Source of the DNA: Bifidobacterium thermophilum
GTDB lineage: Bacteria > Actinomycetota > Actinomycetes > Actinomycetales > Bifidobacteriaceae
DNA length: 64,000 nt
NCBI GenBank assembly: GCA_000741495.1
Contig: JGZV01000002.1
Span: forward strand, 186,001 to 250,000
Direction of reading: 5' to 3'
Every line of letters starts with the position of its first letter. Within the stretch, counting starts at the first letter, position 1. The translations under genes and the position numbers were made by a program. Shown piece by piece: positions 37,019 to 52,262 of the stretch. The notes beneath the pieces were generated by a model, which did no database searches, had not been told where the DNA came from, and saw nothing but the letters and a program-made list of their open reading frames with translations.

Positions 37019-39592
37019 TCACCGCACCGACGAACGCTCCTTCAAAATCGGCACAAACACATCCAAGAATTTCCGACTCCATGTCGCCATGAACTCGGCC
37101 ATGCGAGGCCAATCCGCCTCGTTCGCGAGCGCAACACCTTCCAGCGAAGTGGAAATCAGGGATGCTTTGGAGGTCTTGCTGCCGCCGAGTCTGTTCCATG
37201 TGAGTTGAGTTCTTTCCAGCGCATCCTCTATTTCCTTGCTGCGTGATTGCAGGAAGTCAAACATCCGGCGGTTTGCTTCTGCATCTTGCTTTCCGAGGTA
37301 AAGTTCAACCCGCGCCTCATCTTGATTGGCAACGCAGTTCACGGCGAATCCGCTGATGCCGAATGTGCCAGCGATCGATCTCCAATCGCTTGGTTTGCGG
37401 TTGTCGAAGCAACCGTTCTCGCGATTCGCTTCTTGAACCACGGGAAGCGCATACTCCCAGTACGCTCTGTTCAATTCACGTCTGGTGCAATCGGTAAGCG
37501 TGTCATCATCCTGGTCATGAAGGTAGAACACGAGGTCTGTCGGGTCTTCGTGGAACAGCGAGAACAGCTTGCGCAGAATCGAGATCTTGGCCGCCGTGTT
37601 ATTGTGCTTTTCCACGTAGATGCCGTCATCAACCTTCAGCGGGGTACGGAATCCGCTTGGATTACCGCTGAAATACCCGCTGATATCGGTTTCTCCGTTC
37701 TGATGGTATACAAGGCCCAACAGCACAGAATTGTCTTTGTCATGCAGGTATTTCACCACATGCTCGAACATGTCCGCCCAGCTCGAGACCGGTGTTTCCT
37801 TGCCTTGGTAGGCGTACTTGACGATGTCCCGGCCGGTCAGATCGAAATCCTCATCGTCCAGCGTGCAGGAGTCATACTCTTTCTCAACCGGTTTGAACGC
37901 TGTAAACGGCATGGGCCAGATTCCACTTACTGCACGGGAAACCAGCTCATCGTTGCGCTCCTGCATATCCTCGGCACCCCACCGGTCCTTCGTCGCAATC
38001 CGCTGGTTCATCCGCAAACCGCTGTACTTGTAGCCTCTCTCGGCGTCCCTCTTCTCACGGAAGGTGGCGTTGCTCATGTTGGAATTGTAGGCGGTCAACG
38101 TCAGGTTGCCGAGCCTGTGCAACCACACGTCATGGATCTCCTCCGCGTCCGCCCCAAGCTCTTCAACCCATGCAGGAGTCAGATGCTGCGGCATGATGTG
38201 CTCAATGGAATACGTGCCGTTGTCCAACAACGTGTACACGTCCTTGGTCTCCAGCGTGCCATAGTTCTCAAAACGCTCGAACAAGTATGATCTGTACTTC
38301 CCGCGCATCTGATACACGGCCTTGTTTGCAAGCGCCCGTTCGAACTCTTCATCGTCCGGGAAGCGGCTACTTTCCTTCTTCGAAAGCAGCACATACTTGA
38401 ACTTGTCCAGATAGTTGTCAGCTGTGCCGTCGAAGCGCAGCACCTCGCGGTTGAGCGTGAGGAACACCTTGTTCAACGAGTTTGTCGGCACGTCACAGAT
38501 ATTGCGGCGAAACAGGTAGTTCTCGACAATCAGCACAACCTGTGCAAGATCATCACTGGATATCTTACCGTCCTGGTTGAGCCGGAAGACCTCCATGAGG
38601 AACGGTTCCGCCACAGTAACGTCGAGCCGACGCAACCGGTACAAGGAATCATCGAGTACCCGGTTGTCCAGACCGCTCTTGCCGTCGTACAACTTGCGGT
38701 AGATACGCGCATATCCGAGCATATCCTCCAACACATTGATCAAAGGCGCATTGCGGGACGCGACGAATTCCTTGAAGGCACGGTACACATTCTTGAGGGT
38801 TGGCGTCACCTGCTGCTTGATGCTCAGATAATCGCGGACGAAAGCGCTGACATCCCCGCCTGTACACTCTTCGATTTTCGTCCAGTATTTCGCATAGACA
38901 TCATCTTGCTGTTTCGGATCGAGACCCATGAGAACGTAGTTGCGGATCTTATCGCCCTCGGTCAAGGCGAGACCCGTGGAATTCAGGCTTTCAAAAATCA
39001 GTTGCGCATTGTCATCCCCATCAAGAGTGATGCTGATGACTTGTAGCTTTTTCACAGCGTCGAACAGCTGGTCTGCGGTTATTGTCCCTTGAGCGATGCG
39101 ATCGCAGAAGTACTGGTAGTTGATGGTCAGATTGGAAGCGAGATCAAACTCCTCCCGATCGCCTGCCACGAGCCTGTGCAAAGTATCACGGTCAGCCTTG
39201 ACAGGACGAAGCTTAATCTTGTCATCTCCGCTGCTCCACTCGTCCACGATGTACCGCTTCATAATCTGATCTGCAACGGTTCCATCAGCCGACTTCGCTT
39301 GTCCCGACCGAACCATGTTGGAAATCGCAAGCAGCAACAACGTAACCGTAGTCAAACGCTGTTGCCCATCAATGATGTGATATTCAATCTTACTGCCGTC
39401 CGGCACAATCTGGGAAACGATGCTGCCGAAGAAATGATGGCTTCTTCCGTCGCGAATGACTTTCTCGAGATCCGCATACAGCTGACGGCAATTGTCAACC
39501 TTCCAGTCGTACTTCCTCTGGTACACCGGAATGACATACCGCTTGTCAGCGCCCTCCATCAGCCCAAGCAGCTGAGTCTCAGAACCCTTCAT
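37019..39592 (-). CDS. GmrSD-type DUF262/DUF1524/DUF4268 protein
   Basis: 857 aa from ATG 39592, with GGAGG five bases upstream; the in-frame extension to 39658 runs through a palindrome and is rejected. Domain order: DUF262 with IPVYQRKYDW (about 20-29) and IIDGQQRLTTVTL (about 74-86), the ParB-like DGQQR nucleotide-binding motif; DUF1524 with SIEHIMPQHL near 463 and HRLGNLTLTAYNSNMSN, the HNH-type nuclease motif; and a C-terminal DUF4268-like region (ARVELYLGKQDAEANRRMF, TQLTWNRLGGSKTSKASL). Such proteins are type IV restriction enzymes that cut modified phage DNA. It lies 150 bp upstream of the DrmD-like gene on the same strand and may belong to the same system or be an independent layer against modified phages. 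Confidence 0.85.
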   Translation of the reverse strand: MKGSETQLLGLMEGADKRYVIPVYQRKYDWKVDNCRQLYADLEKVIRDGRSHHFFGSIVSQIVPDGSKIEYHIIDGQQRLTTVTLLLLAISNMVRSGQAKSADGTVADQIMKRYIVDEWSSGDDKIKLRPVKADRDTLHRLVAGDREEFDLASNLTINYQYFCDRIAQGTITADQLFDAVKKLQVISITLDGDDNAQLIFESLNSTGLALTEGDKIRNYVLMGLDPKQQDDVYAKYWTKIEECTGGDVSAFVRDYLSIKQQVTPTLKNVYRAFKEFVASRNAPLINVLEDMLGYARIYRKLYDGKSGLDNRVLDDSLYRLRRLDVTVAEPFLMEVFRLNQDGKISSDDLAQVVLIVENYLFRRNICDVPTNSLNKVFLTLNREVLRFDGTADNYLDKFKYVLLSKKESSRFPDDEEFERALANKAVYQMRGKYRSYLFERFENYGTLETKDVYTLLDNGTYSIEHIMPQHLTPAWVEELGADAEEIHDVWLHRLGNLTLTAYNSNMSNATFREKRDAERGYKYSGLRMNQRIATKDRWGAEDMQERNDELVSRAVSGIWPMPFTAFKPVEKEYDSCTLDDEDFDLTGRDIVKYAYQGKETPVSSWADMFEHVVKYLHDKDNSVLLGLVYHQNGETDISGYFSGNPSGFRTPLKVDDGIYVEKHNNTAAKISILRKLFSLFHEDPTDLVFYLHDQDDDTLTDCTRRELNRAYWEYALPVVQEANRENGCFDNRKPSDWRSIAGTFGISGFAVNCVANQDEARVELYLGKQDAEANRRMFDFLQSRSKEIEDALERTQLTWNRLGGSKTSKASLISTSLEGVALANEADWPRMAEFMATWSRKFLDVFVPILKERSSVR

Positions 39593-39619
39593 ATGGCCTC
39601 CACTCCAATGCCCCGGGTA

Positions 39620-39653
39620 CCGTGCGCCACACAGCGAGGTGGGTGGCGCACGG
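39620..39653. repeat. Perfect 11-bp inverted repeat
   Basis: CCGTGCGCCAC (39620-39630) and GTGGCGCACGG (39643-39653) with a 12-nt loop, 28 bp upstream of the DUF262 start. No U tract follows on either strand. It could be an operator controlling the DUF262/helicase genes or the end of the AlbA_2 transcript. Confidence 0.55.
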
Positions 39654-39764
39654 GACAATACCGATAGTGGTTAGTGTATTCGTGGTGGTGAACGTTAGAT
39701 ATTAACAATATGCCCCACGCCGACAAAAGAAGACATCCGATTCATCTATTACCGCGATAACACG

Positions 39765-40937
39765 TTACGAAGCTTTTGTCGTGAAAGAGGTAGATTGCCG
39801 GAAATCGTCTAACATCCGAATGAGTATTTGTACATTAATGTATTGATCTTTCAAAATACTCATATCATTCCCAGGGTACTCCTTTGGAATGCCAGGGATA
39901 TAAATATTCTGCTCATATTTTCGTCTATCCCCCCAGTGTTTAAGTGCATAACAATCAAATTCTTCTCGTTCATCTTCGCTATTAAACATTAAAATACAGC
40001 TTTCATACTTCTTCTTCGCAAAGGAAATATCATAAATATTATCTCTCTTGTAGAATTGATGAACGAGATAAGGAATATCATCCTTAACAAAATAATTGTA
40101 TGTGATATCACAAACCGGATTATTTAGGAAAGAAAATCCGCCGGAACTAGGGGTTGCGGTGTAACACTTGCCATTATCCAGCCCCACCGCTTGAATCTTG
40201 TCAAGTATTTCTTGATTATATCGAATCGTTATTTCACCCCAATGTGGACTGATTACAGGATTAAGCTGATTCAACAGATAATATGCGAGGCTGGTATTTC
40301 CGGCCAACTCGCGAGTCAACTCTATCGTAAATTCAGGAAAGTAATTATAATACCACCTGCTTCCAACCGAAGACAAACTGCAGCTCCAATCCTCGGGGCA
40401 CTGAAGATACTTTTTCACTTTCTCCTCAGGGCTTAGGAACATTCCAAAATGCTTTCTCCACAGATATTCGACATCACTGAAGTCAGCCGATCTATCCCGC
40501 GGCGAATTAGCATCCGCAAGTCGAACGTAGATGTTACCTGATGCAACTTGTTTGAATCGCTTTTGCAAATAATAAGGTGCGTTTAAGCTGTTTTTCACAA
40601 CTATCACATCAATTGAAGCATCTTGAATGCGAATGGTTTCAACGGTTACATTAGGTGTGGAATCACCGGCAAACTCTTTACTAGAGAGGAAATCTGTCAG
40701 CTGTTGAGTGTTTCTGCGATTCTCATCATCCACCACATCACATATTCGATAATTATCACTCTCATCAACGCCAATAATAATATATGCGTCTCTGTCAACC
40801 TTGTTGTTTGCCATACAAATAATATCGATAAGCATATCGCTATCTTTTTCTTTATGATACCATTCCTTCTTGAAATCCCAATATGGTCCTTCTTTGCGCA
40901 TTTTTATCAATTCATTTATTTCTTTATCCAATTCCAT
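39765..40937 (-). CDS. AlbA_2 (Schlafen-like) domain protein, AT-rich
   Basis: 390 aa. Residues 1-150 match the AlbA_2 / divergent AAA-4 putative DNA-binding domain found in Schlafen-like bacterial proteins: EGPYWDFKKEWYHKE, LIDIICMANNKVDRDAYIIIGVDE, VDVIVVKNS-type strand and PYYLQ with NIYVRLADANSPRD. The remaining 240 residues are unassigned and Tyr/Asp-rich. ATG 40937 has AAGGAG eight or nine bases upstream. Base composition is very AT-rich, unlike the GC-rich chromosome and unlike the operon next to it, suggesting separate transfer. Bacterial AlbA_2 proteins often sit in defence islands as regulators or nucleases; its job here is unknown. Confidence 0.75.
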   Translation of the reverse strand: MELDKEINELIKMRKEGPYWDFKKEWYHKEKDSDMLIDIICMANNKVDRDAYIIIGVDESDNYRICDVVDDENRRNTQQLTDFLSSKEFAGDSTPNVTVETIRIQDASIDVIVVKNSLNAPYYLQKRFKQVASGNIYVRLADANSPRDRSADFSDVEYLWRKHFGMFLSPEEKVKKYLQCPEDWSCSLSSVGSRWYYNYFPEFTIELTRELAGNTSLAYYLLNQLNPVISPHWGEITIRYNQEILDKIQAVGLDNGKCYTATPSSGGFSFLNNPVCDITYNYFVKDDIPYLVHQFYKRDNIYDISFAKKKYESCILMFNSEDEREEFDCYALKHWGDRRKYEQNIYIPGIPKEYPGNDMSILKDQYINVQILIRMLDDFRQSTSFTTKAS

Positions 40938-42810: not shown

Positions 42811-43548
42811 TTATTCTCGGGCGAACGGCGCAAGCAATCCGGTTATCGTTTTTGCCGGAGGCTTGGCGAATTCCCCGCATTTTGCGGTGCCTGCACCCAT
42901 GCGTACCAGTCCTTCGACCAAGGTCACCCCTGCCGCCACCCCATCGATGACTGGCCGATGCAAGGTGTTGCATAGCCGCTTGCACATGCCTGCCATGCCG
43001 GCGCATCCCAAGACAATAACATCAGGATCGCAATCCTTGATGGTTGACTCGCATTCGGCAAGCAACGCACGGTATGCGCCGTCCGGATCCGAATCCAGAC
43101 CGAGGACCGGCACCTCGCAGGCGCGGTACGCTACGCATTGGCGTTCGAACCCGTATTCGAGCACCAGGTCTCGTGCACGCCCCAGCGTACGCGACAACGT
43201 GGTGACGATGGCGAAGGACCGCCCCAGCAGGCTCGCCGCGTGGAATGCCGCCTGCGCGATGCCGACAACCGGTCCCGAGACGAGTTCCTGTGCGGCGTGA
43301 AGTCCGGGATCGCCGAAACACGCGAGCACATACCCGTCAGTTCCTTCTTGCTCGCCTTGCCTGACTTCGTCGAGCACACCCACCGAAGCGAGGGCTTCAT
43401 CGTAATGGGATTCGATGGAGACCGGTCCCATACTGGGGTTGGTGGCCACGATGCGGGTGTCGGAGCCGGCGACCGCCTGTGCGGCTTCACGAATGGTTTC
43501 GGTCATGCTGGCGGTCGTATTCGGATTGATGACTCGGATGGTGATCAT
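42811..43548 (-). CDS. hpxA: Allantoin/hydantoin racemase (Asp/Glu racemase superfamily)
   Basis: 245 aa. Starts MITIRVINPNTTASMTETI, the typical N-terminus of hydantoin racemases. The two catalytic cysteines are in LACFGDPGLHA (about 76) and IVLGCAGMAG (about 180). The family interconverts R and S forms of hydantoins, including allantoin. The neighbouring allantoinase, allantoate amidohydrolase and NCS1 permease make allantoin the likely substrate, so that both enantiomers can be used. The start codon overlaps the permease stop (TGATG), indicating coupled translation. The symbol is assigned by context; a broader hydantoin racemase is possible. Confidence 0.85.
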   Translation of the reverse strand: MITIRVINPNTTASMTETIREAAQAVAGSDTRIVATNPSMGPVSIESHYDEALASVGVLDEVRQGEQEGTDGYVLACFGDPGLHAAQELVSGPVVGIAQAAFHAASLLGRSFAIVTTLSRTLGRARDLVLEYGFERQCVAYRACEVPVLGLDSDPDGAYRALLAECESTIKDCDPDVIVLGCAGMAGMCKRLCNTLHRPVIDGVAAGVTLVEGLVRMGAGTAKCGEFAKPPAKTITGLLAPFARE

Positions 43549-45140
43549 CAGCGCGCCGCCTCACGGTCGCAGGAATTGCCGTCATTGACGTCCGGATCGT
43601 TGGCGTCGAGCTGGACGATGTACGGGTGACGACGTTCCAGAAGCGTGAAGACCGCAAAACCGAGCCCTGCGCCAATGAACCAGCTGAAGTTGGACAACGC
43701 GGTGAGATTCACGATGCCGGCCTGGGCGAGCGGGCTGGGCAGAATCGCGCACGCGATGGCCGGGATGCCTGCGAGAATGATCGCTTTGACGGCGTTGGGA
43801 TTGAACCCGTTACGATACCAATACCGGCCGGACGGGTCCATGGTGAACAGGTCATCGACGGCGATACGTTGGTGGGCGACCACGAAGTATCCGGCGATGA
43901 GGATGCCGAACAGCGGGCCGATCAGCGAACCGAGCAGATCAAGCGTGTAATGGATGGCCTGGTCGTTGGAATACCAGTTCCACGGAGTGATAAGCACGGA
44001 ACCGACCGCAGCGATCATACCGCCGGTCCTCCAACTGATCTTGCGCGGGTTGACATGCGAGAAATCGAAGGCCGGGGAGACGAAGTTCGCAACGATGTTG
44101 ATGCCGACGGTCGCTGTGACGAACGTCAGGCCACCGAGCAGGATGGCGAACGGCGTATCGATATGCTCCACGGTCTCGATCGGGTCGGTGATCAGTTCGC
44201 CGAAAACAGGCACGGTGGCGGACGCGCAAACGACAGTCAACAACGAGAACACCAAGAAGTTGACCGGCAGACCCCAGAAATTGCCGGTTTTCACGCTCCG
44301 ATAGGTGCCGCAGTATCGGGAGAAATCCCCGAAGTTCAGCATCGGACCGGAGAAGTAGGAGACGATAAGCGCGACCGCGGTGATCATCACGGGAATGGAT
44401 TGTGCGAGCCCCATCGGCTTGCCGGATGACAGGTTGAGATCAAGCGCGCCGAGGCCGCCGGCACGAACAACCAGATAGATGGCGAGCGCAAGCATGACCG
44501 CGTAGACCATGGGTCCGGCGAAGTCGGTGAATTTGCGGATGGTGTCCATGCCTTTCCAGAACACGCAGGCTTGGGCGACCCACAGGATCCCGTAGGACAG
44601 CCAACCCAGGGCGGACAGGCCCAGGAATGAGGTCTCGGCCAGGGCGTGGGTTGCGGGGATGAATTTGAGGAAGATGATGTTGAGGGATTCCGAAGCGAGG
44701 AAGGTCTGCACACCGTACCATGCGACGGCGATGATGCCGCGGATGACGGCGGGGATGTTGGCGCCTTTGACGCCGAAGACGAAGCGCATGGTGACGGGGA
44801 ACGGCACGCCGGTACGCTGGCTTGGCTTGGCAACCAGGTTGACGAGCGCCTGGACGATGATGATGCCGACGATCAGGCAGATGAACACCTGCCAGCTGGC
44901 GATGCCGAGCGCGAACAGGCTGCCTGCGGTGACATACCCGCCGACGGAGTGGACATCAGACATCCAGAACGCGAAGATGTTGTACCAGCTCCAGCTTTGT
45001 TTGCGCAGCGGCGCGAGGTCCTTGTTGGCGAGTCGTGGATCGTACCCCGGTTTGATCAGGGTGTCGTCGTCGTTGGCGCGAGTGGTCGATCGACTGCTTG
45101 AGGGGATCATGGTCTCCTGCCCTATAGTTGCGGTGCTCAT
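43548..45140 (-). CDS. NCS1-family nucleobase/allantoin permease
   Basis: 530 aa with about twelve helices. After a polar N-terminus it reads SWSWYNIFAFWMSDVHSVGG, the NCS1 helix-1 motif, then GVPFPVTMRFVFGVKGANIP and IAVAWYGVQTFLASESL, characteristic of NCS1 symporters (allantoin, uracil, hydantoin, cytosine carriers). ATG 45140 has AAGGAG six bases upstream. It overlaps the racemase gene. Given the enzymes downstream on the same strand, uptake of allantoin with H+ or Na+ is the best guess; the substrate cannot be told from the sequence alone. Confidence 0.88.
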   Translation of the reverse strand: MSTATIGQETMIPSSSRSTTRANDDDTLIKPGYDPRLANKDLAPLRKQSWSWYNIFAFWMSDVHSVGGYVTAGSLFALGIASWQVFICLIVGIIIVQALVNLVAKPSQRTGVPFPVTMRFVFGVKGANIPAVIRGIIAVAWYGVQTFLASESLNIIFLKFIPATHALAETSFLGLSALGWLSYGILWVAQACVFWKGMDTIRKFTDFAGPMVYAVMLALAIYLVVRAGGLGALDLNLSSGKPMGLAQSIPVMITAVALIVSYFSGPMLNFGDFSRYCGTYRSVKTGNFWGLPVNFLVFSLLTVVCASATVPVFGELITDPIETVEHIDTPFAILLGGLTFVTATVGINIVANFVSPAFDFSHVNPRKISWRTGGMIAAVGSVLITPWNWYSNDQAIHYTLDLLGSLIGPLFGILIAGYFVVAHQRIAVDDLFTMDPSGRYWYRNGFNPNAVKAIILAGIPAIACAILPSPLAQAGIVNLTALSNFSWFIGAGLGFAVFTLLERRHPYIVQLDANDPDVNDGNSCDREAAR

Positions 45141-45198
45141 CGTTGCTCCTTACCGTGGTGTTGGGTTGCCCGTCTGGCTGATGACACCATTAACCGAA

Positions 45199-45373
45199 AT
45201 TTTTATTTCCGTAACCAAGATCGAGAGTTTTCCGGTTTGTTGCACGATTCAGTGATTCGTAACATTGAGGACATATTGCGTGATTCGGCGAGGGGTATCA
45301 GGGGGTATTGCCGTGTTGCGCGTAACATTGAGGCAACATTGCCATCAATTGGGAGGAATATTTATTTTCATTC
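45199..45373. promoter_or_regulatory. Regulatory region upstream of the permease gene
   Basis: The 415-bp gap 45141-45555 holds the permease promoter. Two exact copies of CGTAACATTGAGG lie at 45258-45270 and 45321-45333 (63 bp apart). AATATTTATTTTCATTC at 45357-45373 resembles GTATTTATTTTTCATAC at 51232-51248 in front of the aminotransferase and RpiR genes. GAAATTTTTATTTC near 45196-45209 is a short palindrome of similar flavour. These are candidate operators for the local RpiR regulator, found by eye. Confidence 0.4.
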
Positions 45374-45472
45374 ATGCGCGGGAATCGCACGCTTCCACGG
45401 GGTTCCCCTCCCCCGCCTCACGCCCGAATCGCACATGGGTCGCATTCGACGTTCCCCGATCCCGACAATGCC

Positions 45473-45514
45473 GGATGGGCCGTCGGATCGCGGCAACGAT
45501 CCGACGGCCCATCC
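45473..45514 (-). terminator. 18-bp perfect hairpin after the amidase gene
   Basis: 45473-45490 pairs perfectly with 45497-45514 around a 6-nt loop, 42 bp beyond the amidase stop. It has no U tract but is very stable. It separates the aminotransferase-to-amidase transcript from the permease-racemase transcript. Confidence 0.7.
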
Positions 45515-45555
45515 TTGTAGGGAAAACAGTAGGGAAAACAGCTACGGAATACCGG

Positions 45556-47181
45556 TCACAGTCTCCGGCACAGCTCCTTGGCGAACGCTACGAGCGCCTT
45601 GTCGCTGCCGGCAGGGCCGATTAGGCACACACCGCACGGCAAACCCTGCTCGGTGGCAATCGGCATGGTCAGGGCAGGCAATCCGCCGACACCCGCCAGC
45701 GAAGTCAACCGCATCGTACGCATACGGGTACGCGTCGCGGTTTCAGCATCATCCTGCTCCCCCAAGGTCGGAGCCACCGTGGCGGCAGTAGGCATGAGCA
45801 GCACCTTGCCGCCGACCAGCGAGCGGATCATCGCGCGGGAACGCTCCAACCGTTCCAATCCACAGCGGTACGCCGCCTCGCCGATGAGCGCATCCCGGCG
45901 GAACCGCTCGGCGATATCCGGGGCGATCGCCTCCATATGCTTGGCGGCCCAACCGCCGTTCGCCCGCCACGCCTCATAGCCACGGACCGTGGAGAACACG
46001 TCGAGGAACCCGTCGAACATACCGGCATCCAGCGTGATCTCGCCCCACGGGTCCGCTTGCCCGTGCACACCCGCCAAGGCGGCGTCGTGCATCGCGTCGC
46101 AGCTGCGGGAGAATGCTTGCGCGACATCCGCGTCAACCATCTGCCCCGGCAACGCACATACCGCCACTTCACCCGACAGCCTCGCCGTATCCCGGTCAGG
46201 AAGCATGGCTTGTGTCACAAAATCCATAGTCTGCGCGTCGCGCGTCATCCAGCCGACCGTGTCAAAGGATTCAGACAACGGATGTACGCCTTCACGACTG
46301 ACCCGATCGTGTGTGGTACGCAACCCCCACAATCCCTGATATGCGGAAGGAATACGAATCGAACCCGCCGTATCCGTGCCCAAGCCGATCACCGCCTGCC
46401 CGGAAGCGACCGCGCTCGCCGGACCCGATGACGATCCGCCCGGTACGCGCCCCACGGCTTTGGGATTCGGCGGCGTACCGTAATGCGCGTTGGCACCGGC
46501 CAACGAATACGCGAACTCGTCGGTTCGGGCGATGCCGACAATATCCGCCCCGGCGTCAAGCAGCCGCTGAACTGCAGGAGCCGAATGCTCTTGCACCGGC
46601 GCTTCGGCCAGGTAGGCGGGATTGCCGGCGCCTACACGCTGCCCGGCGACCGCATACAAGTCCTTGACCGCCACCCCCATACCTGACAACGGGCCGGGAT
46701 GAGCGGCCGCCACAAGCGGCGAGCCGGCTACACGCCAGATCGTCGAATCGATCGCGGGCGCCGGATAGGTCAGGTGCGCGGCGACAATCTTCCACACGTC
46801 ATCGCAGCGTTGCCATACCTGGGTTTGGATGACGATGCCGCCGCTCGCTTTTTCGAATCGCGACACCACGCATGCCGCGGTATCGCCGAGCCGGCGGGCA
46901 ACACGGGAAATCAAACGTCTGGTCGGGGCGTTCCTACGCGCTTTGCGGAACGCCCCGATGGCGGTGTGCCCGACAATCATGCCTTTGGCGTCCGACCGGA
47001 CAACAGGGATACCATCCGGATCGTCGGCGAACATCGCGGACAGCCGTTTGGCGTCGTTGGCCATCAACGCCGCCTCATACCGGCCGATTGCCGCTACCAG
47101 GTCGGGGTCCAGCACCTCGATGTTGTCGTGCACGGCCTGTCCATCTCGGCGGTGCGGCTCATTTTCGGATGGTTGTGTCAT
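45556..47181 (-). CDS. AtzH/HpxZ-like domain fused to amidase-signature hydrolase
   Basis: 541 aa. Residues 20-140 form an AtzH/DUF3225 (SnoaL-like) domain: DPDLVAAIGRYEAALMAND, GIPVVRSDAKGMIVGHTAI, IVIQTQVWQRCDDVWKIVAAH. Residues 150-541 are an amidase-signature enzyme with the Lys-cisSer-Ser triad in GVAVKDLYAV, PGGSSSGPASAVASG and GTDTAGSIRIPSAYQG. In Klebsiella the separate genes hpxZ (DUF3225) and hpxY (amidase) lie in the hpxWXYZ oxalurate locus, so this looks like an HpxZ-HpxY fusion. With an oxalurate-forming aminotransferase in the same operon, oxalurate hydrolysis is the best inference; 1-carboxybiuret-type substrates are the alternative. Ribosome site AAGGA precedes ATG 47181, 14 nt after the allantoinase stop. 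Confidence 0.82.
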   Translation of the reverse strand: MTQPSENEPHRRDGQAVHDNIEVLDPDLVAAIGRYEAALMANDAKRLSAMFADDPDGIPVVRSDAKGMIVGHTAIGAFRKARRNAPTRRLISRVARRLGDTAACVVSRFEKASGGIVIQTQVWQRCDDVWKIVAAHLTYPAPAIDSTIWRVAGSPLVAAAHPGPLSGMGVAVKDLYAVAGQRVGAGNPAYLAEAPVQEHSAPAVQRLLDAGADIVGIARTDEFAYSLAGANAHYGTPPNPKAVGRVPGGSSSGPASAVASGQAVIGLGTDTAGSIRIPSAYQGLWGLRTTHDRVSREGVHPLSESFDTVGWMTRDAQTMDFVTQAMLPDRDTARLSGEVAVCALPGQMVDADVAQAFSRSCDAMHDAALAGVHGQADPWGEITLDAGMFDGFLDVFSTVRGYEAWRANGGWAAKHMEAIAPDIAERFRRDALIGEAAYRCGLERLERSRAMIRSLVGGKVLLMPTAATVAPTLGEQDDAETATRTRMRTMRLTSLAGVGGLPALTMPIATEQGLPCGVCLIGPAGSDKALVAFAKELCRRL

Positions 47182-47195
47182 TTCATTCCTTCCAT

Positions 47196-48575
47196 TCAGC
47201 GCTGCAAGTTATCGTATGCCTGTCCCGTCAAGCGCGTGACGAGGTTGTCCGCACATATTTGAGGAGCATGCCCGGCGATGAACGTGCGTGTGACCACCCC
47301 ATTGAGTGTCATGCCATCGAACGCGCTGATGGGATTGCGGCTCAGCAGTTGTCTGGCGTCGACAGTGAACTGCGCATCCGGGCGGAGAACAGCCAGGTCG
47401 GCGCGTTTGCCTTCGGCGATTGCACCGCGGTCGGCCAATCCGGCGAAGCGGGCGGTATTGCCTGACATCCAGCGCACGGCGTCGGCCAGGCCCAATCCGC
47501 GGCGGCGTGCACCGGTCAGTACCGCGCGGAATCCGACTTGCAAGCTTGACACGCCGCCCCAGGCGGTGGCGAGGTTTCCGGATTTCATCGCCGCATCCGC
47601 CGGCGAATGGTCGGTGGCAATGAAATCAAGCGTTCCATCCACCAGCCCCTGCCATAGCGCATCCTGCTCGTCAAGGTCGCGGATCGGCGGGCAGCATTTG
47701 AATGCGGTCGCGTTATCGGGGATATGATCGCAATCCAAGGTGAGGTAATGCGGGCAGGTTTCAGCGGTGACCGGCAGGCCCTCGGCTTTGGCCCGTCGGA
47801 TGACGTCAACCGTCATGCCGCTGGAAACGTGGAGAATATGGGTGCGGCACCCGGTCTCGCGCACCGCTTCGATGACCTTCGTCACCGCTCGCGCCTCGCA
47901 GGAGGCCGGCCGTGAATCCGCGAAACTCCGGTATGACGAGCCGACTGACCCGGCACCATGGGAAAGTTCCTCCGGATCCTCGGCATGGCAGATGAGCCTG
48001 CCGCCGAAACCGGCGATTTCGCGCATCGCATCACGCAACTGCGTGTAAGTGAGCGAACCGTATTCGTCAACACCGCTAGGCGACAGGAAGCATTTGAATC
48101 CGAACACGCCAGCCTCCCACAACTCGTGCAGATGGCCCAGATTGCTGGCATCCACGCCGCCCCAGAACCCGACCTGGACGCGCGCCTTGTTGCGGGCGCA
48201 CGAACGTTTGAGCTCCAATGCCCGGACGGACAGTGTCGGCGGGTTCGAATTAAGCGGCATATCCAGCACCGTGGTCACCCCTCCGGCGGCTGCCGCAGCC
48301 GTGGCGCAGTCGAAGCCCTCCCAGTGGGTGCGTCCTGGTTCGTTGATGTGGACATGCGTGTCGACGATGCCGGGAATGAGTACTTCGTCCGGGGCAAGAC
48401 GCACGTACTCGCGTGCCGCAACGGGGTATGTGTCCGGATGCGACACCCCGGTGATGATCCCGTTGTCCACGCTGATCCGGCTGCGCACCTCCACGCCTGC
48501 GACCAAGGCGGTGCCGTCGATGACCAGATCATGCATGGCGGTAGCGCCCTTAGCCTGTGTCGTGTCCCCGCTCAT
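47196..48575 (-). CDS. allB: Allantoinase
   Basis: 459 aa, amidohydrolase (cyclic amidase) superfamily. Metal ligands are visible in PGIVDTHVHINEPGRTHWEGF (the HxH pair; quoted only to show the H-V-H and the E-P-G-R loop), the Lys in FGFKCFLSPSGVDEYG (carboxylated Lys), LICHAEDPEEL, THILHVSSG and FIATDHSPA. The H-V-H-I-N-E-P-G-R loop and FKCFLSPSGV favour allantoinase over dihydroorotase. It hydrolyses allantoin to allantoate in the cytosol. Its start overlaps the allantoate amidohydrolase stop (ATGA), so the two are translationally coupled and act on successive steps. Confidence 0.92.
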   Translation of the reverse strand: MSGDTTQAKGATAMHDLVIDGTALVAGVEVRSRISVDNGIITGVSHPDTYPVAAREYVRLAPDEVLIPGIVDTHVHINEPGRTHWEGFDCATAAAAAGGVTTVLDMPLNSNPPTLSVRALELKRSCARNKARVQVGFWGGVDASNLGHLHELWEAGVFGFKCFLSPSGVDEYGSLTYTQLRDAMREIAGFGGRLICHAEDPEELSHGAGSVGSSYRSFADSRPASCEARAVTKVIEAVRETGCRTHILHVSSGMTVDVIRRAKAEGLPVTAETCPHYLTLDCDHIPDNATAFKCCPPIRDLDEQDALWQGLVDGTLDFIATDHSPADAAMKSGNLATAWGGVSSLQVGFRAVLTGARRRGLGLADAVRWMSGNTARFAGLADRGAIAEGKRADLAVLRPDAQFTVDARQLLSRNPISAFDGMTLNGVVTRTFIAGHAPQICADNLVTRLTGQAYDNLQR

Positions 48576-49873
48576 GCCAGCACCTCCTCACGCTCATGTG
48601 TCGGCATGACGATGCTGCCGTCCTGTATTGCCTGTGCCACATTGAGTACCGCGTGTTCGAACGCGTCAGCGCCGTAGGCGACATCGTCGGCCCGCACGGA
48701 CTCCAACGGGCTGTGGCTGATACCGCCCTTGCATCGCACATACAGCATGGCGATGGGCAGCAGATTGGCTACGGCCATGCCATCATGGCCCGGATAGCTC
48801 ACCAATCCGAACGCCTCCTTGCCTTCCGCTTGTTCTATACCCTGCTCGATGCACCCGCGCAGGGTCGGGTCGCAGCGCACGGCGTCCGCGGTGTGGATGC
48901 GCGTATGCGTCACACTGACATGCCTGTCCGCCGCGATGGTATCCGCAGCCTGCCAGATGCGTTCGAACACCTTGTCACGCAAGGCGTTGTCCGCGGCACG
49001 CACGTCGAGGCTGAACGTGGCCTCGCCTGCGATGACGTTGACCCCACCCGGCAGCGCGCTGATCTCACCCACGTTGGCACGGGTGCCTTCCTCCTGGCTG
49101 ATGGCGTCGACGGCCTCGATGATCTGCGCGGCGGCCGTCAACGCGTCATGCCGCAGGTCATAGGGTGTTGCGATATGGCAGGATCGCCCCCTGACCGTCA
49201 CCATGTACCGGCTTGCCGCCGCGATCGAGGTGACCGAGGACAAGGCACGGTCACGCTGCTCAAGGATCGGCCCCTGCTCGATGTGGAATTCCAAGTAGCC
49301 GATGTAGTCTTCACGTTCGCGCGCCGCCTCATGGACATCATCCGGGTCGAGACCGAAATCGCGGAAGGCCTGCCGCATGGTGACCCCATGCGCGTCTCGG
49401 CGGTCGAGCCATTCATCACGCCATCCGCCGCCGAACGCGTATGAACCGAGAAGAGTAGCGCCGAAACGGGCGCCTTCCTCGTCGCCAAAGCCGAGTACTT
49501 CGATGGCGAACGGGAGGGTGTCGCTGATACCGGTGTCATGCAGGTGCGTCGCGACCGATACGGCGGTGATCACGCCAAGAATGCCGTCATATTTGCCGGC
49601 ATCGGGCACGGAATCGAGATGCGAGCCGAGTACCAGCGCCGGCAAACCCGGTTCACGACCTTCAAGCCTGCCGACCAGGTTGCCTGCCTGATCGATATGC
49701 GTGCTCATGCCGCCTTGCTGCATCCAGCCGGCGACAAGCCGGTATGCCTGCGCCATCTGCGGCGACAGGTAGTCCCGTTCGATGCCGTGCTCCATGCTGG
49801 TGAGCCCGGCAAGCTCGTCGCATCGGGCGAGGATCGTCTCCGACGCTTTCACGGCCCATTGTTGTGCACTCAT
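48572..49873 (-). CDS. allC: Allantoate amidohydrolase (M20 family)
   Basis: 433 aa, zinc-dependent M20/AllC-HyuC family. Metal motifs: LVLGSHLDSVPDAGKYDG (His and Asp), FGDEEGARFG (Glu-Glu), LEFHIEQGPILEQ and YPGHDGMAVANLLP near the C-terminus. VRGRSCHIATPYDLRHDA is the dimerisation-domain histidine segment, in the place of the usual GxxxHAGTTPM. The enzyme removes ammonia and CO2 from allantoate to give S-ureidoglycine. AAGGGA precedes ATG 49873. Its order next to allB and the aminotransferase supports allantoate over N-carbamoyl amino acids as substrate. Confidence 0.88.
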   Translation of the reverse strand: MSAQQWAVKASETILARCDELAGLTSMEHGIERDYLSPQMAQAYRLVAGWMQQGGMSTHIDQAGNLVGRLEGREPGLPALVLGSHLDSVPDAGKYDGILGVITAVSVATHLHDTGISDTLPFAIEVLGFGDEEGARFGATLLGSYAFGGGWRDEWLDRRDAHGVTMRQAFRDFGLDPDDVHEAAREREDYIGYLEFHIEQGPILEQRDRALSSVTSIAAASRYMVTVRGRSCHIATPYDLRHDALTAAAQIIEAVDAISQEEGTRANVGEISALPGGVNVIAGEATFSLDVRAADNALRDKVFERIWQAADTIAADRHVSVTHTRIHTADAVRCDPTLRGCIEQGIEQAEGKEAFGLVSYPGHDGMAVANLLPIAMLYVRCKGGISHSPLESVRADDVAYGADAFEHAVLNVAQAIQDGSIVMPTHEREEVLA

Positions 49874-49940
49874 TGAAATTTTCCCTTCATACTTGTCTTG
49901 TTCGTGTGACGCCGGACATCAGCCGGCATTGGGAAGACGG

Positions 49941-51185
49941 TCAGTCCTGGCCCGCTTGCGCGTATACGTCGAGCGCAGCCTGAATGCCGCGGGATGTGTC
50001 CACGGTCACACCGTTGCGTTCGAGTACGCTGCCGAGCGCCGCGACGCATGTGAGGACAGCATCCTTGCGGGCGTTGCATCCCATGACACCGATGCGCCAG
50101 ATCCTGCCTTGCAGCGGGCCGAAGGAGGATGCGATCTCAACGGAGAAATCAGCGAGTAGCTGAGAGCGCACGGCGGAGTCATCGACACCGTCGGGGATGA
50201 CCACGCCGATTACGTCGTTCATGCGGTATCGCTGGTCACCGAACAGGCTCAGTCCCATCCCTTCGATGGCGGCCGCCATGGCAGCGCCGTTGAGCCGGTG
50301 ACGTTCGATAACCTGGTCGATGCCCTCCTCGACGATGATGCGCGCCGCTTCGTGCGCAGCGTAGAGCATGTGCGTGGCCTCGGTGTGATGGTTGAGATGG
50401 CGCGGGCCCCAGTAGTCGAAGATCTGCGGCAGGTCAAAATAGTTGCTGCGGATGCGCTTGGCGGCGATCTCACCAGGGGCGGCGACGCCGGCCTCGATGC
50501 TCTTGCGACGTTCCATCACCGCGACCGCACGGTCGGACACCGTAATCGGGGCCATGCCGGACGGGCCGCCGAAGCATTTCTGCAGACCGGTGGTGGCGAT
50601 GTCGATACCCCACTCGTCGACGCGCAGGTCGTTGCCCACCATCGAGGCGGTCGCATCGGTATAGAGCAGAGCACCGTGGCGGTGGCAGATCTCGCCGAGC
50701 CCCTCGAGCGGCTGGCACATGGTGGTCGACGTGTCGCCCTGCACGGTGGCGACCAGAACAGGCTTGGTTTCAACAATCGCCTGCTCGATTTCCTTGAGGT
50801 CAAAGACCTCGCCCCACGGTCGTTCGATGACATGGACGTCGGCGTCGCAACGTTCGGCAATTTCCTTGAGCAGCATGCCGAAACGGCCCGCACAGCAGAC
50901 CAGCACGGGGTCGCCCGGGCTGATCACCGAAACGAACGCCGCTTCGATGGCCGAACGCGACGTGCCATCAACAACCATGGTCCGTTCGTTGCCGGTCTTG
51001 AAGATTGTGCGCAGCATGGCCTGGACCTCGCCCATAACACGGAACATGTAGGGGTCGAACTGGCCGACCGTCGGCTTGGACATCGCGGCGAGGACACGCG
51101 GATCGACATTGGTCGGCCCCGGGGCCATCAGCAGACGGTGTGGTGGATCCAACGGCTGGATGGTCTTGATTTCTTCTTGCGCCAT
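49941..51185 (-). CDS. pucG: (S)-ureidoglycine-glyoxylate aminotransferase
   Basis: 414 aa, class V PLP aminotransferase. N-terminus reads RLLMAPGPTNVDPRVLAAMS, as in alanine/serine/ureidoglycine-glyoxylate transaminases. The PLP Lys is in TGLQKCFGGPSGMAPI, and LYTDATASMVGNDLRVDEWG precedes it with the cofactor Asp. The NH-containing QYGF-like segment RHLNHHTEATHM is typical of PucG/UGXT. PucG converts ureidoglycine plus glyoxylate to oxalurate plus glycine. ATG 51185 is chosen over 51194 because GGAG then lies nine bases upstream instead of touching the start. First gene of the allC-allB-amidase unit and divergent from the RpiR regulator. Confidence 0.87.
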   Translation of the reverse strand: MAQEEIKTIQPLDPPHRLLMAPGPTNVDPRVLAAMSKPTVGQFDPYMFRVMGEVQAMLRTIFKTGNERTMVVDGTSRSAIEAAFVSVISPGDPVLVCCAGRFGMLLKEIAERCDADVHVIERPWGEVFDLKEIEQAIVETKPVLVATVQGDTSTTMCQPLEGLGEICHRHGALLYTDATASMVGNDLRVDEWGIDIATTGLQKCFGGPSGMAPITVSDRAVAVMERRKSIEAGVAAPGEIAAKRIRSNYFDLPQIFDYWGPRHLNHHTEATHMLYAAHEAARIIVEEGIDQVIERHRLNGAAMAAAIEGMGLSLFGDQRYRMNDVIGVVIPDGVDDSAVRSQLLADFSVEIASSFGPLQGRIWRIGVMGCNARKDAVLTCVAALGSVLERNGVTVDTSRGIQAALDVYAQAGQD

Positions 51186-51231
51186 GACAATCATCTCCAG
51201 TGTCGCGGACGGCGTGCTGCCACCCGACGTG

Positions 51232-51275
51232 GTATTTATTTTTCATACATAGTGAATCGCTGAAAGTTTTCATTC
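51232..51275. promoter_or_regulatory. Candidate operator between pucG and the RpiR gene
   Basis: GTATTTATTTTTCATAC (51232-51248) and GAAAGTTTTCATTC (51262-51275, containing the palindrome TGAAAGTTTTCA) lie in the short divergent region. RpiR-type operators are usually AT-rich palindromes of this kind. A related sequence precedes the permease gene at 45357-45373, linking the two transcription units. By eye only. Confidence 0.42.
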
Positions 51276-51371
51276 TTGTTAACGCAGGCGGAGCTCCGAC
51301 ACGTGCGCGAAACAATCGATATCCCGGGGAAACACCGGCGACATTGCCATGGAATGCATTCAAGGGCGACA

Positions 51372-52262
51372 ATGGCAGACATGAATAAAGAAAAGAATCT
51401 TTCACCGAACGTCCCTGACGAGGACCCGGCCGCACGTATCGAGCGCTGCTACCCATCGCTGACGGCGACCGAACAGGAAGCCGCACGGTACATCCTGGGA
51501 CACCTCACCGATGTATTGCTATCGAATTCCACCGAACTCTCCCAGCTCAGCGGCGTATCGCAGCCTACGCTGAGCCGGTTGTACCGCAAGCTCGGCTATG
51601 CGAACGCCGGCGAGTTCCGACGCAGCGTGCGCGCCATCCACCGGCCCGGCGCCCCCGAGACCGAGACGAAACAGGATCTGCCGGACAACCCGGTCATCGA
51701 GCATATGCGTCGCGACGAGGCGAGCCTCGAACGCACCATCGGCAATCTCGATCCCGCGACACTCGCCTCGCTGTGCTCCGCCATGGCCGACGCCCGGCGC
51801 ATCTGTATCTTCGGCGCGAGGAACAGCTACCCCATCGCCCTGCACTTGCGCGAACAGCTGCTCCAGTTGCGTGACGGCATCGAGCTGCTCCCCCAGCCCG
51901 GGCAGAGCATCGCCGAGGAGATCGTCGGCCTCGACGGGCGTGACGTCGCCATCATCGTGGCGGTACGCCGCAGAACCGCTCTGTTTCTTCCCCTAGTCGA
52001 CGCGCTTGATGCAAGGGGCGTCCGGATCGCCGTCATCGGTGATTCCTCGGCACGTACTAGGCTTCTCGGCCGCAACGTGGACATCCTCGAGGCGGACCTC
52101 AGCTCACGCATGCTGACCAGCTACACTTCCGCCTTTGCTATCGCCGCCCTCATCACCGATATGCTTTCCGACACCCTCAGCCATATGCAAGGGCACGACC
52201 CGGCAGGCAGGATCAAGGCGATCAACACCGCATTCGACCAACTCGGCGAGCTTGAGGAGTGA
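51372..52262 (+). CDS. RpiR-family transcriptional regulator (HTH + SIS)
   Basis: 296 aa starting MADMNKEKN with AAGGG five bases upstream. Residues 20-95 form the RpiR helix-turn-helix (YPSLTATEQEAARYILGHL, STELSQLSGVSQPTLSRLYRK), and residues 120-280 the SIS sugar/phosphate-binding fold (RRICIFGARNSYPIALHLREQL, GLDGRDVAIIVAVRRRTALF, RGVRIAVIGDSSARTRLLG). Regulators of this type in ureide loci (AllS/HpxU analogues in other bacteria) respond to pathway intermediates. Divergent from the pucG operon, it is the likely local regulator; whether it activates or represses is not shown by sequence. Confidence 0.88.
   Translation: MADMNKEKNLSPNVPDEDPAARIERCYPSLTATEQEAARYILGHLTDVLLSNSTELSQLSGVSQPTLSRLYRKLGYANAGEFRRSVRAIHRPGAPETETKQDLPDNPVIEHMRRDEASLERTIGNLDPATLASLCSAMADARRICIFGARNSYPIALHLREQLLQLRDGIELLPQPGQSIAEEIVGLDGRDVAIIVAVRRRTALFLPLVDALDARGVRIAVIGDSSARTRLLGRNVDILEADLSSRMLTSYTSAFAIAALITDMLSDTLSHMQGHDPAGRIKAINTAFDQLGELEE

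Follow-up and report, generated by a model that had tools for sequence, protein, structure and literature searches.

How would a bifidobacterium that can turn allantoin into oxalurate carry that compound further? The question is raised by an operon of Bifidobacterium thermophilum at positions 42,811 to 52,262 of a 64,000-nucleotide stretch (assembly GCA_000741495.1, contig JGZV01000002.1, 186,001 to 250,000 of the forward strand), referred to as a whole as the window. In the 2.1-Mb genome that holds it, the operon genes are all open and full-length at the coordinates given below, according to the list of open reading frames, and they include a fused protein, here called ZY, that joins an AtzH-like domain to an amidase. 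The predicted conversion of allantoin to oxalurate by this operon is well supported, both by the families to which its products belong and by the recurrence of the set, conserved in 10 of the 112 genomes of the genus. As the best explanation of the whole, we propose with moderate confidence that the operon serves allantoin utilisation for nitrogen, with ZY leading from oxalurate to oxamate and a protein of the acetamidase/formamidase (FmdA) family, encoded elsewhere in the genome, leading from oxamate to oxalate.

The first part of the route can be followed gene by gene. An NCS1-family permease (43548..45140, minus strand; PF02133, 296 bits), a probable allantoin importer, would bring allantoin in, and a member of the Asp/Glu/hydantoin racemase family (42811..43548, minus strand; PF01177, 204 bits), probably an allantoin racemase, would interconvert its enantiomers. 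The closest NCBIfam equivalog of the permease is the allantoin permease NF008476 (282 bits, below the cut-off of 620), and the protein is 76-85% identical to its counterparts in the nine other clusters of the genus. The ring would be opened to allantoate by the allantoinase AllB (47196..48575, minus strand), which scores 486.5 bits on TIGR03178, above the cut-off of 357.85. An AllC-like M20 hydrolase (48572..49873, minus strand), a probable allantoate amidohydrolase, would then release ureidoglycine, NH3, and CO2; it reaches 478.7 bits on NF006775 (cut-off 479) and 316 bits on the subfamily model TIGR01879 (cut-off 204). The class V aminotransferase (49941..51194, minus strand) matches the ureidoglycine-glyoxylate aminotransferase 3nnk at 477 bits and PucG (3isl) at 426 bits, with alanine-glyoxylate aminotransferases at no more than 299 bits. 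By these scores it is of the ureidoglycine (PucG/HpxJ) type and not of the alanine-glyoxylate type, and it would pass the amino group of ureidoglycine to a keto acid, leaving oxalurate; the Klebsiella transaminase reportedly takes keto acids besides glyoxylate.

An earlier note on this DNA had read the permease, racemase, AllB, AllC, and PucG-type aminotransferase as a route from allantoin to oxalurate, and the Pfam, NCBIfam, and 3nnk/3isl scores agree with it. The racemase, permease, and M20 families also have members in hydantoin utilisation, and the operon could instead act on hydantoin or another cyclic ureide through a racemase, a hydantoinase, a carbamoylase, and an NCS1 permease, with the other genes serving another compound. 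The racemase, for which the NCBIfam search gave no match, would fit such a role, as would the AllC-like hydrolase, which stays at 194 bits on the AllC equivalog TIGR03176 (cut-off 597.75). However, AllB passes the allantoinase equivalog and scores 182.6 bits on the dihydropyrimidinase/D-hydantoinase model, far below its cut-off of 393.25; moreover, the aminotransferase belongs to the ureidoglycine type, and the whole set travels together. Because of the allantoinase and aminotransferase scores, we rank a hydantoin operon low and regard it as highly improbable.

A search for the cluster across bifidobacteria, which the earlier note had suggested, found the same set repeatedly. Besides the window genome, nine of the 112 genomes carry the aminotransferase, and permease, racemase, AllC, AllB, and ZY accompany it in all nine (the fetched stretches cut the racemase of genome G073 and the permease of G017). 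The RpiR-family regulator had no match in G017, where the fetched stretch stops within the permease, and one stop lies inside the aminotransferase match in two of the ten genomes (G017 and G073). We therefore regard the allantoin gene set as a conserved accessory trait of the genus. In G017 the operon also includes, between pucG and the racemase, a gene for a DctA-type dicarboxylate transporter (locus L047:16528-17961).

What may happen to oxalurate depends first on ZY (45556..47181, minus strand), a single open reading frame of 541 amino acids with an AtzH-like domain (residues ~27-138; PF11533, 61.9 bits, cut-off 27) and an amidase domain (~158-539; PF01425, 201 bits). By removing the terminal ureido nitrogen of oxalurate as NH3, the amidase domain would produce N-carboxyoxamate. 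By analogy with AtzE-AtzH, the AtzH domain would then decarboxylate this unstable dianion, which is similar to 1,3-dicarboxyurea, to oxamate. Of the nine AtzH pocket residues named in the accessible part of PMC6219798 (Tyr22, Arg46, Arg63, Arg66, Arg73, Phe94, Arg96, Gln106, and Gln108), eight are identical in the ZY of the window, the exception being Arg96, which is replaced by Lys111. The mapping rests on an alignment to AtzH (6bjt), which implies an offset of 22 in residue numbers; the Arg73Lys entry served as a check on it. All nine residues are present in Klebsiella HpxZ, and the Tyr22 equivalent, Tyr35 in the ZY of the window, is invariant across 10 aligned ZY proteins of the genus; outside the genus the pocket is looser, with Phe94 and Arg96 varying and the Arg46 region missing from G173.

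The earlier note had described ZY as a fused HpxZ-HpxY-like amidase. The AtzH-amidase fusion is as it proposed, whereas the likeness to HpxY does not hold. The amidase is 30% identical to Klebsiella HpxY and falls below the AtzE/HpxY models (TIGR02715, 176 versus 425.75 bits; NF006631, 180.5 versus 461 bits), and the N-terminal domain falls below the HpxZ equivalog NF033625 (62 versus 135 bits). A closer model is NF006169, at 366 bits, yet still under the cut-off of 391. Judged by sequence, the ZY amidase belongs to a different subfamily from Klebsiella HpxY and is not its orthologue; Lys-Ser-Ser residues, presumably the amidase motif, are present. With the conserved pocket in its favor, ZY is a plausible oxalurate-handling enzyme, even though its amidase half is no HpxY orthologue. 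An HpxX/AtzG-like gene was not found in the intergenic stretches of the operon; no genome-wide search for one was made. In Azospirillum, a separate amidase of the ZY-amidase subfamily adjoins an hpxZ gene, and the locus (L102:2585-10296) holds a row of xanthine-dehydrogenase-family genes, the amidase, hpxZ, and a DUF1116 (AllG-type) gene.

If oxamate is formed, the familiar ways of disposing of it are missing. The absence of a ureidoglycine aminohydrolase, ureidoglycolate lyase, hpxW, and urease from the window, pointed out in the earlier note, extends to the whole genome, where searches gave no match for AllE, ureidoglycolate lyase, the GGT/HpxW family (PF01019), or urease alpha, and none for CoA-transferase III (the Frc family). 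AllG has no match in any of the 112 genomes of the genus, that of the window included. Three candidate endings were rejected on these grounds: (i) a urea-based end, for want of a urease in the window genome; (ii) an oxamic transcarbamylase route, for want of AllG in the 112 genomes; and (iii) for the window genome, a GGT-type HpxW, whose family is absent there and which occurs in two of the ten operon-bearing genomes (G005 and, in two pieces, G099). In Klebsiella the last enzyme, HpxW, is an oxamate amidohydrolase, according to the accessible part of PMC5270733, and its membership in the GGT family agrees with the ggt gene described in that of PMC6219798. The interpretation in the earlier note, sound from allantoin to oxalurate, stopped at the absent hpxW, whereas the genome encodes an FmdA-family protein elsewhere.

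Three lines of evidence tie this family to ZY. In four relatives (G005, G017, G041, and G073) an FmdA/AmdA-family gene sits between AllB and ZY. In three others (G081, G099, and G102, the latter two nearly identical) FmdA, AtzH, and amidase form one reading frame, which in G099 and G102 encodes 886 amino acids. Across the genus, where the count rests on Pfam family PF03069, 14 of the 112 genomes carry a member, 12 of them in the clade linked to ZY, with those of G035 and G074 distant. An intact ZY-type protein occurs in 12 genomes, namely the ten with the operon plus G028 and G042, and a clade member is present in 11 of these 12 and in 1 of the other 100 (G051; Fisher 2.7e-13, ignoring relatedness); if all 14 genomes are counted, the figures are 11 of 12 and 3 of 100 (Fisher 8.1e-12, likewise ignoring relatedness). 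In a tree of 30 rows, the FmdA proteins of the window genome, G070, and G051 fall inside a 19-row actinobacterial clade (support 95/90) that contains every ZY-linked protein and is nested within a 21-row clade (100/99). The formamidase equivalog NF045496, with a cut-off of 500 bits, is far from these proteins (85 bits for the window genome, 70-85 for four ZY-linked ones). From linkage, fusion, and co-occurrence, we infer that FmdA is likely the missing oxamate step, at which it would replace HpxW and hydrolyze oxamate to oxalate and NH3.

In the window genome the fmdA gene lies on another contig (C5:34113-35216), preceded by a GntR gene and followed by one for a CLC-type channel; G070 shares this trio. 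GntR, FmdA, and CLC-family channel genes form a recurring group (loci L075:7314-10704 and L076), and a CLC gene adjoins ZY in L048. In favor of our proposal, both neighbors are also found around the FmdA-ABC-ZY operon of G028. One may guess that the channel exports the oxalate anion.

The association reaches beyond the genus. Seven of 396 actinobacterial genomes, that of the window included, have a ZY-type match above 400 bits, and all seven are among the 46 with an FmdA match at 1e-40. Leaving out the window genome, FmdA accompanies ZY in 6 of 6 genomes compared with 39 of 389 without ZY (Fisher 1.6e-6), a count that is partly circular, as four of the six hit genomes, and the window genome as well, contributed rows to the FmdA profile. 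Genes for FmdA, ZY, AllB, AllC, and PucG are clustered in G325, G454, G427, and G173. In G161 FmdA is adjacent to ZY and in G399 it lies ~7 kb away, with no other allantoin genes in either fetched stretch; on a Rhodococcus plasmid FmdA adjoins ZY, and the annotated neighbors include no allantoin gene. No AtzH domain is recognizable in the G161 match, and in the G173 match the domain is incomplete. Queries with the amidase or FmdA also hit about 750 plasmid records of Klebsiella, at less than 60% identity. Taken as a general statement, that the actinobacterial FmdA is an oxamate amidohydrolase and that some bifidobacterial three-domain fusions take oxalurate all the way to oxalate, recovering all four allantoin nitrogens without urease, HpxW, or transcarbamylase, the proposal is tentative, and we hold it somewhat short of an even expectation.

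Control of the operon may lie with the divergent RpiR/MurR-family regulator (51276..52262, plus strand; PF01418 and PF01380), for which we suggest an HpxU-like role. Between pucG and rpiR, which are 81 bases apart, lies a candidate operator, TGAAAGTTTTCA (51261..51272), the sole match to TGAAA-N2-6-TTTCA in the window, through which the regulator would act. At least one such match turned up somewhere in the 64 kb in 16 of 100 shuffles; therefore, what serves as evidence is the position and recurrence of the motif, rather than the number of matches. All nine other clusters have it near pucG or between the permease and regulator genes, and some carry extra copies elsewhere. The ZY stretches of G028 and G042 and those of the four actinobacterial clusters named above lack it, and scans for promoter-like and terminator-like signals gave nothing above chance.

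Together with the AllC, HpxZ, and AtzE/HpxY scores given above, which fall below their cut-offs, several observations weigh against our proposal. The FmdA of the window genome is unlinked to the operon and has its own GntR gene, and neither the 17.5-kb stretch around it nor the FmdA stretch of G070 contains the operator motif; G052 has the operon without FmdA. An operon that ends at oxamate, which would be excreted while the unlinked FmdA works on another amide, would fit these observations, and the E. coli branch likewise finishes at oxamate, according to the accessible part of PMC11326118. Such an ending seems improbable to us, given that FmdA co-occurs with ZY in relatives, and in some is fused to it, and that the window genome's FmdA belongs to the same clade.

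Other observations concern ZY itself. In G028 and G042, ZY and FmdA occur with an NMT1-type ABC transporter, with no adjoining allantoin genes and no PucG anywhere in the genome; the G028 genes run GntR (divergent), FmdA, NMT1-type binding protein, permease, ATPase, ZY, and CLC. Loci L046 and L048 hold ZY, FmdA, this transporter, and GntR, and might reflect direct uptake of oxalurate or oxamate. In three sister species (G008, G014, and G101; loci L036, L037, and L049), the interval from guaA to Sel1 is 1.9-2.2 kb, compared with 9.8 kb in the window genome, and the amidase domain is all that is left of the operon, AtzH domain, PucG, and FmdA being gone. A decayed remnant was considered and rejected, as the domain is open and conserved there, with a dN/dS of 0.09-0.10 in comparison with the window and of 0.08-0.17 between the three species; dS relative to the window, ~1.2, exceeds the 0.27-0.62 of guaA and Sel1. 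An amidase that stays open and under purifying selection without AtzH therefore has some function outside the pathway, and its persistence argues against its being a dedicated oxalurate enzyme. The G101 copy bears an alanine/threonine-rich insertion. A scan of genome contigs with the ZY protein alone, which reaches close relatives only, matched B. boum and nothing else.

These lone amidases, as expected for an enzyme of a small stand-alone amide, would suit an exchange of roles in which oxalurate is deaminated by FmdA and the product decarboxylated by the AtzH domain, leaving the hydrolysis of oxamate to oxalate to the amidase domain; the linkage of FmdA to ZY leaves the order of the steps unfixed. 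Among structures matching the ZY model, Foldseek ranks malonamidase E2 first; the substrate of that enzyme, malonamate, is similar to oxamate, so an amidase domain acting on oxamate would fit equally; the AlphaFold2 model is weak (mean pLDDT 67), and we draw no specificity from its structural matches. Against the exchange, Klebsiella has an amidase-signature protein encoded between hpxZ and hpxX, both annotated as oxalurate catabolism, and AtzE, which produces the AtzH substrate, is an amidase-signature enzyme (PMC6219798, accessible part). Moreover, FmdA occurs without ZY in G051, as ZY does without FmdA in G052; the former, a clade member on its own, also counts against our own proposal. We consider the exchange rather unlikely and keep ZY for oxalurate and FmdA for oxamate.

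The pathway is known in outline, the fusion is unusual, and what appears new, as far as comparison of sequences goes, is a well-linked candidate, FmdA, for the last step; among the titles and abstracts found, none covered a Bifidobacterium allantoin operon or a link between oxamate and formamidase, with most subscription papers lying outside the search. If the proposal is true, some bifidobacteria could take nitrogen from allantoin, a purine waste product that, as the earlier note suggested, might come from the host. A function would be found for the fused AtzH-amidase and for a clade now named acetamidase/formamidase, and the final step of the oxalurate branch would be accounted for in the absence of HpxW. 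Oxalate as the proposed end product is of consequence, since the window genome lacks a Frc-family CoA-transferase to remove it. With the three-domain fusion, one protein would suffice to test the prediction.

As for the surroundings, guaA follows the rpiR gene, and its product is 98.8% identical to the counterpart in B. boum LMG 10736, a near relative. Possible defence genes lie beside the operon: a GmrSD-type restriction endonuclease (GmrSD_N, GmrSD_C, and DUF4268) and a Schlafen AlbA_2 protein, at 37019-39658 and 39765-40937.

Among known systems, the E. coli oxamate branch (AllFGH and AllK) shares oxalurate as an intermediate of anaerobic allantoin use, but its transcarbamylase yields oxamate and carbamoyl phosphate (PMC11326118, accessible part), and AllG has no match in the 112 genus genomes. 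The AtzE-AtzG-AtzH system of cyanuric acid catabolism, in which AtzE deaminates a ureido compound and AtzH decarboxylates the dicarboxylate product, shares the pocket residues with ZY (PMC6219798, accessible part). It differs in that ZY is one fused protein with an amidase far from AtzE, with no AtzG-like gene in the operon, and with oxalurate as its proposed substrate. The ZY-linked FmdA proteins belong to the acetamidase/formamidase family PF03069 and form a separate clade within it, far under the formamidase equivalog. Also close is the hpx oxalurate cluster of Klebsiella pneumoniae (L101), with a ureidoglycine aminotransferase 55% identical, an M20 hydrolase 42% identical, an RpiR-family regulator, annotated HpxU, 37% identical, and both an AtzH-like HpxZ and an amidase. 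In the operon described here, by contrast, one protein joins AtzH to an amidase of another subfamily, there is no HpxX-like gene, an FmdA-family protein is associated in place of the GGT-type HpxW that the window genome lacks, and an NCS1 permease stands where Klebsiella has an amino-acid-type ABC transporter.

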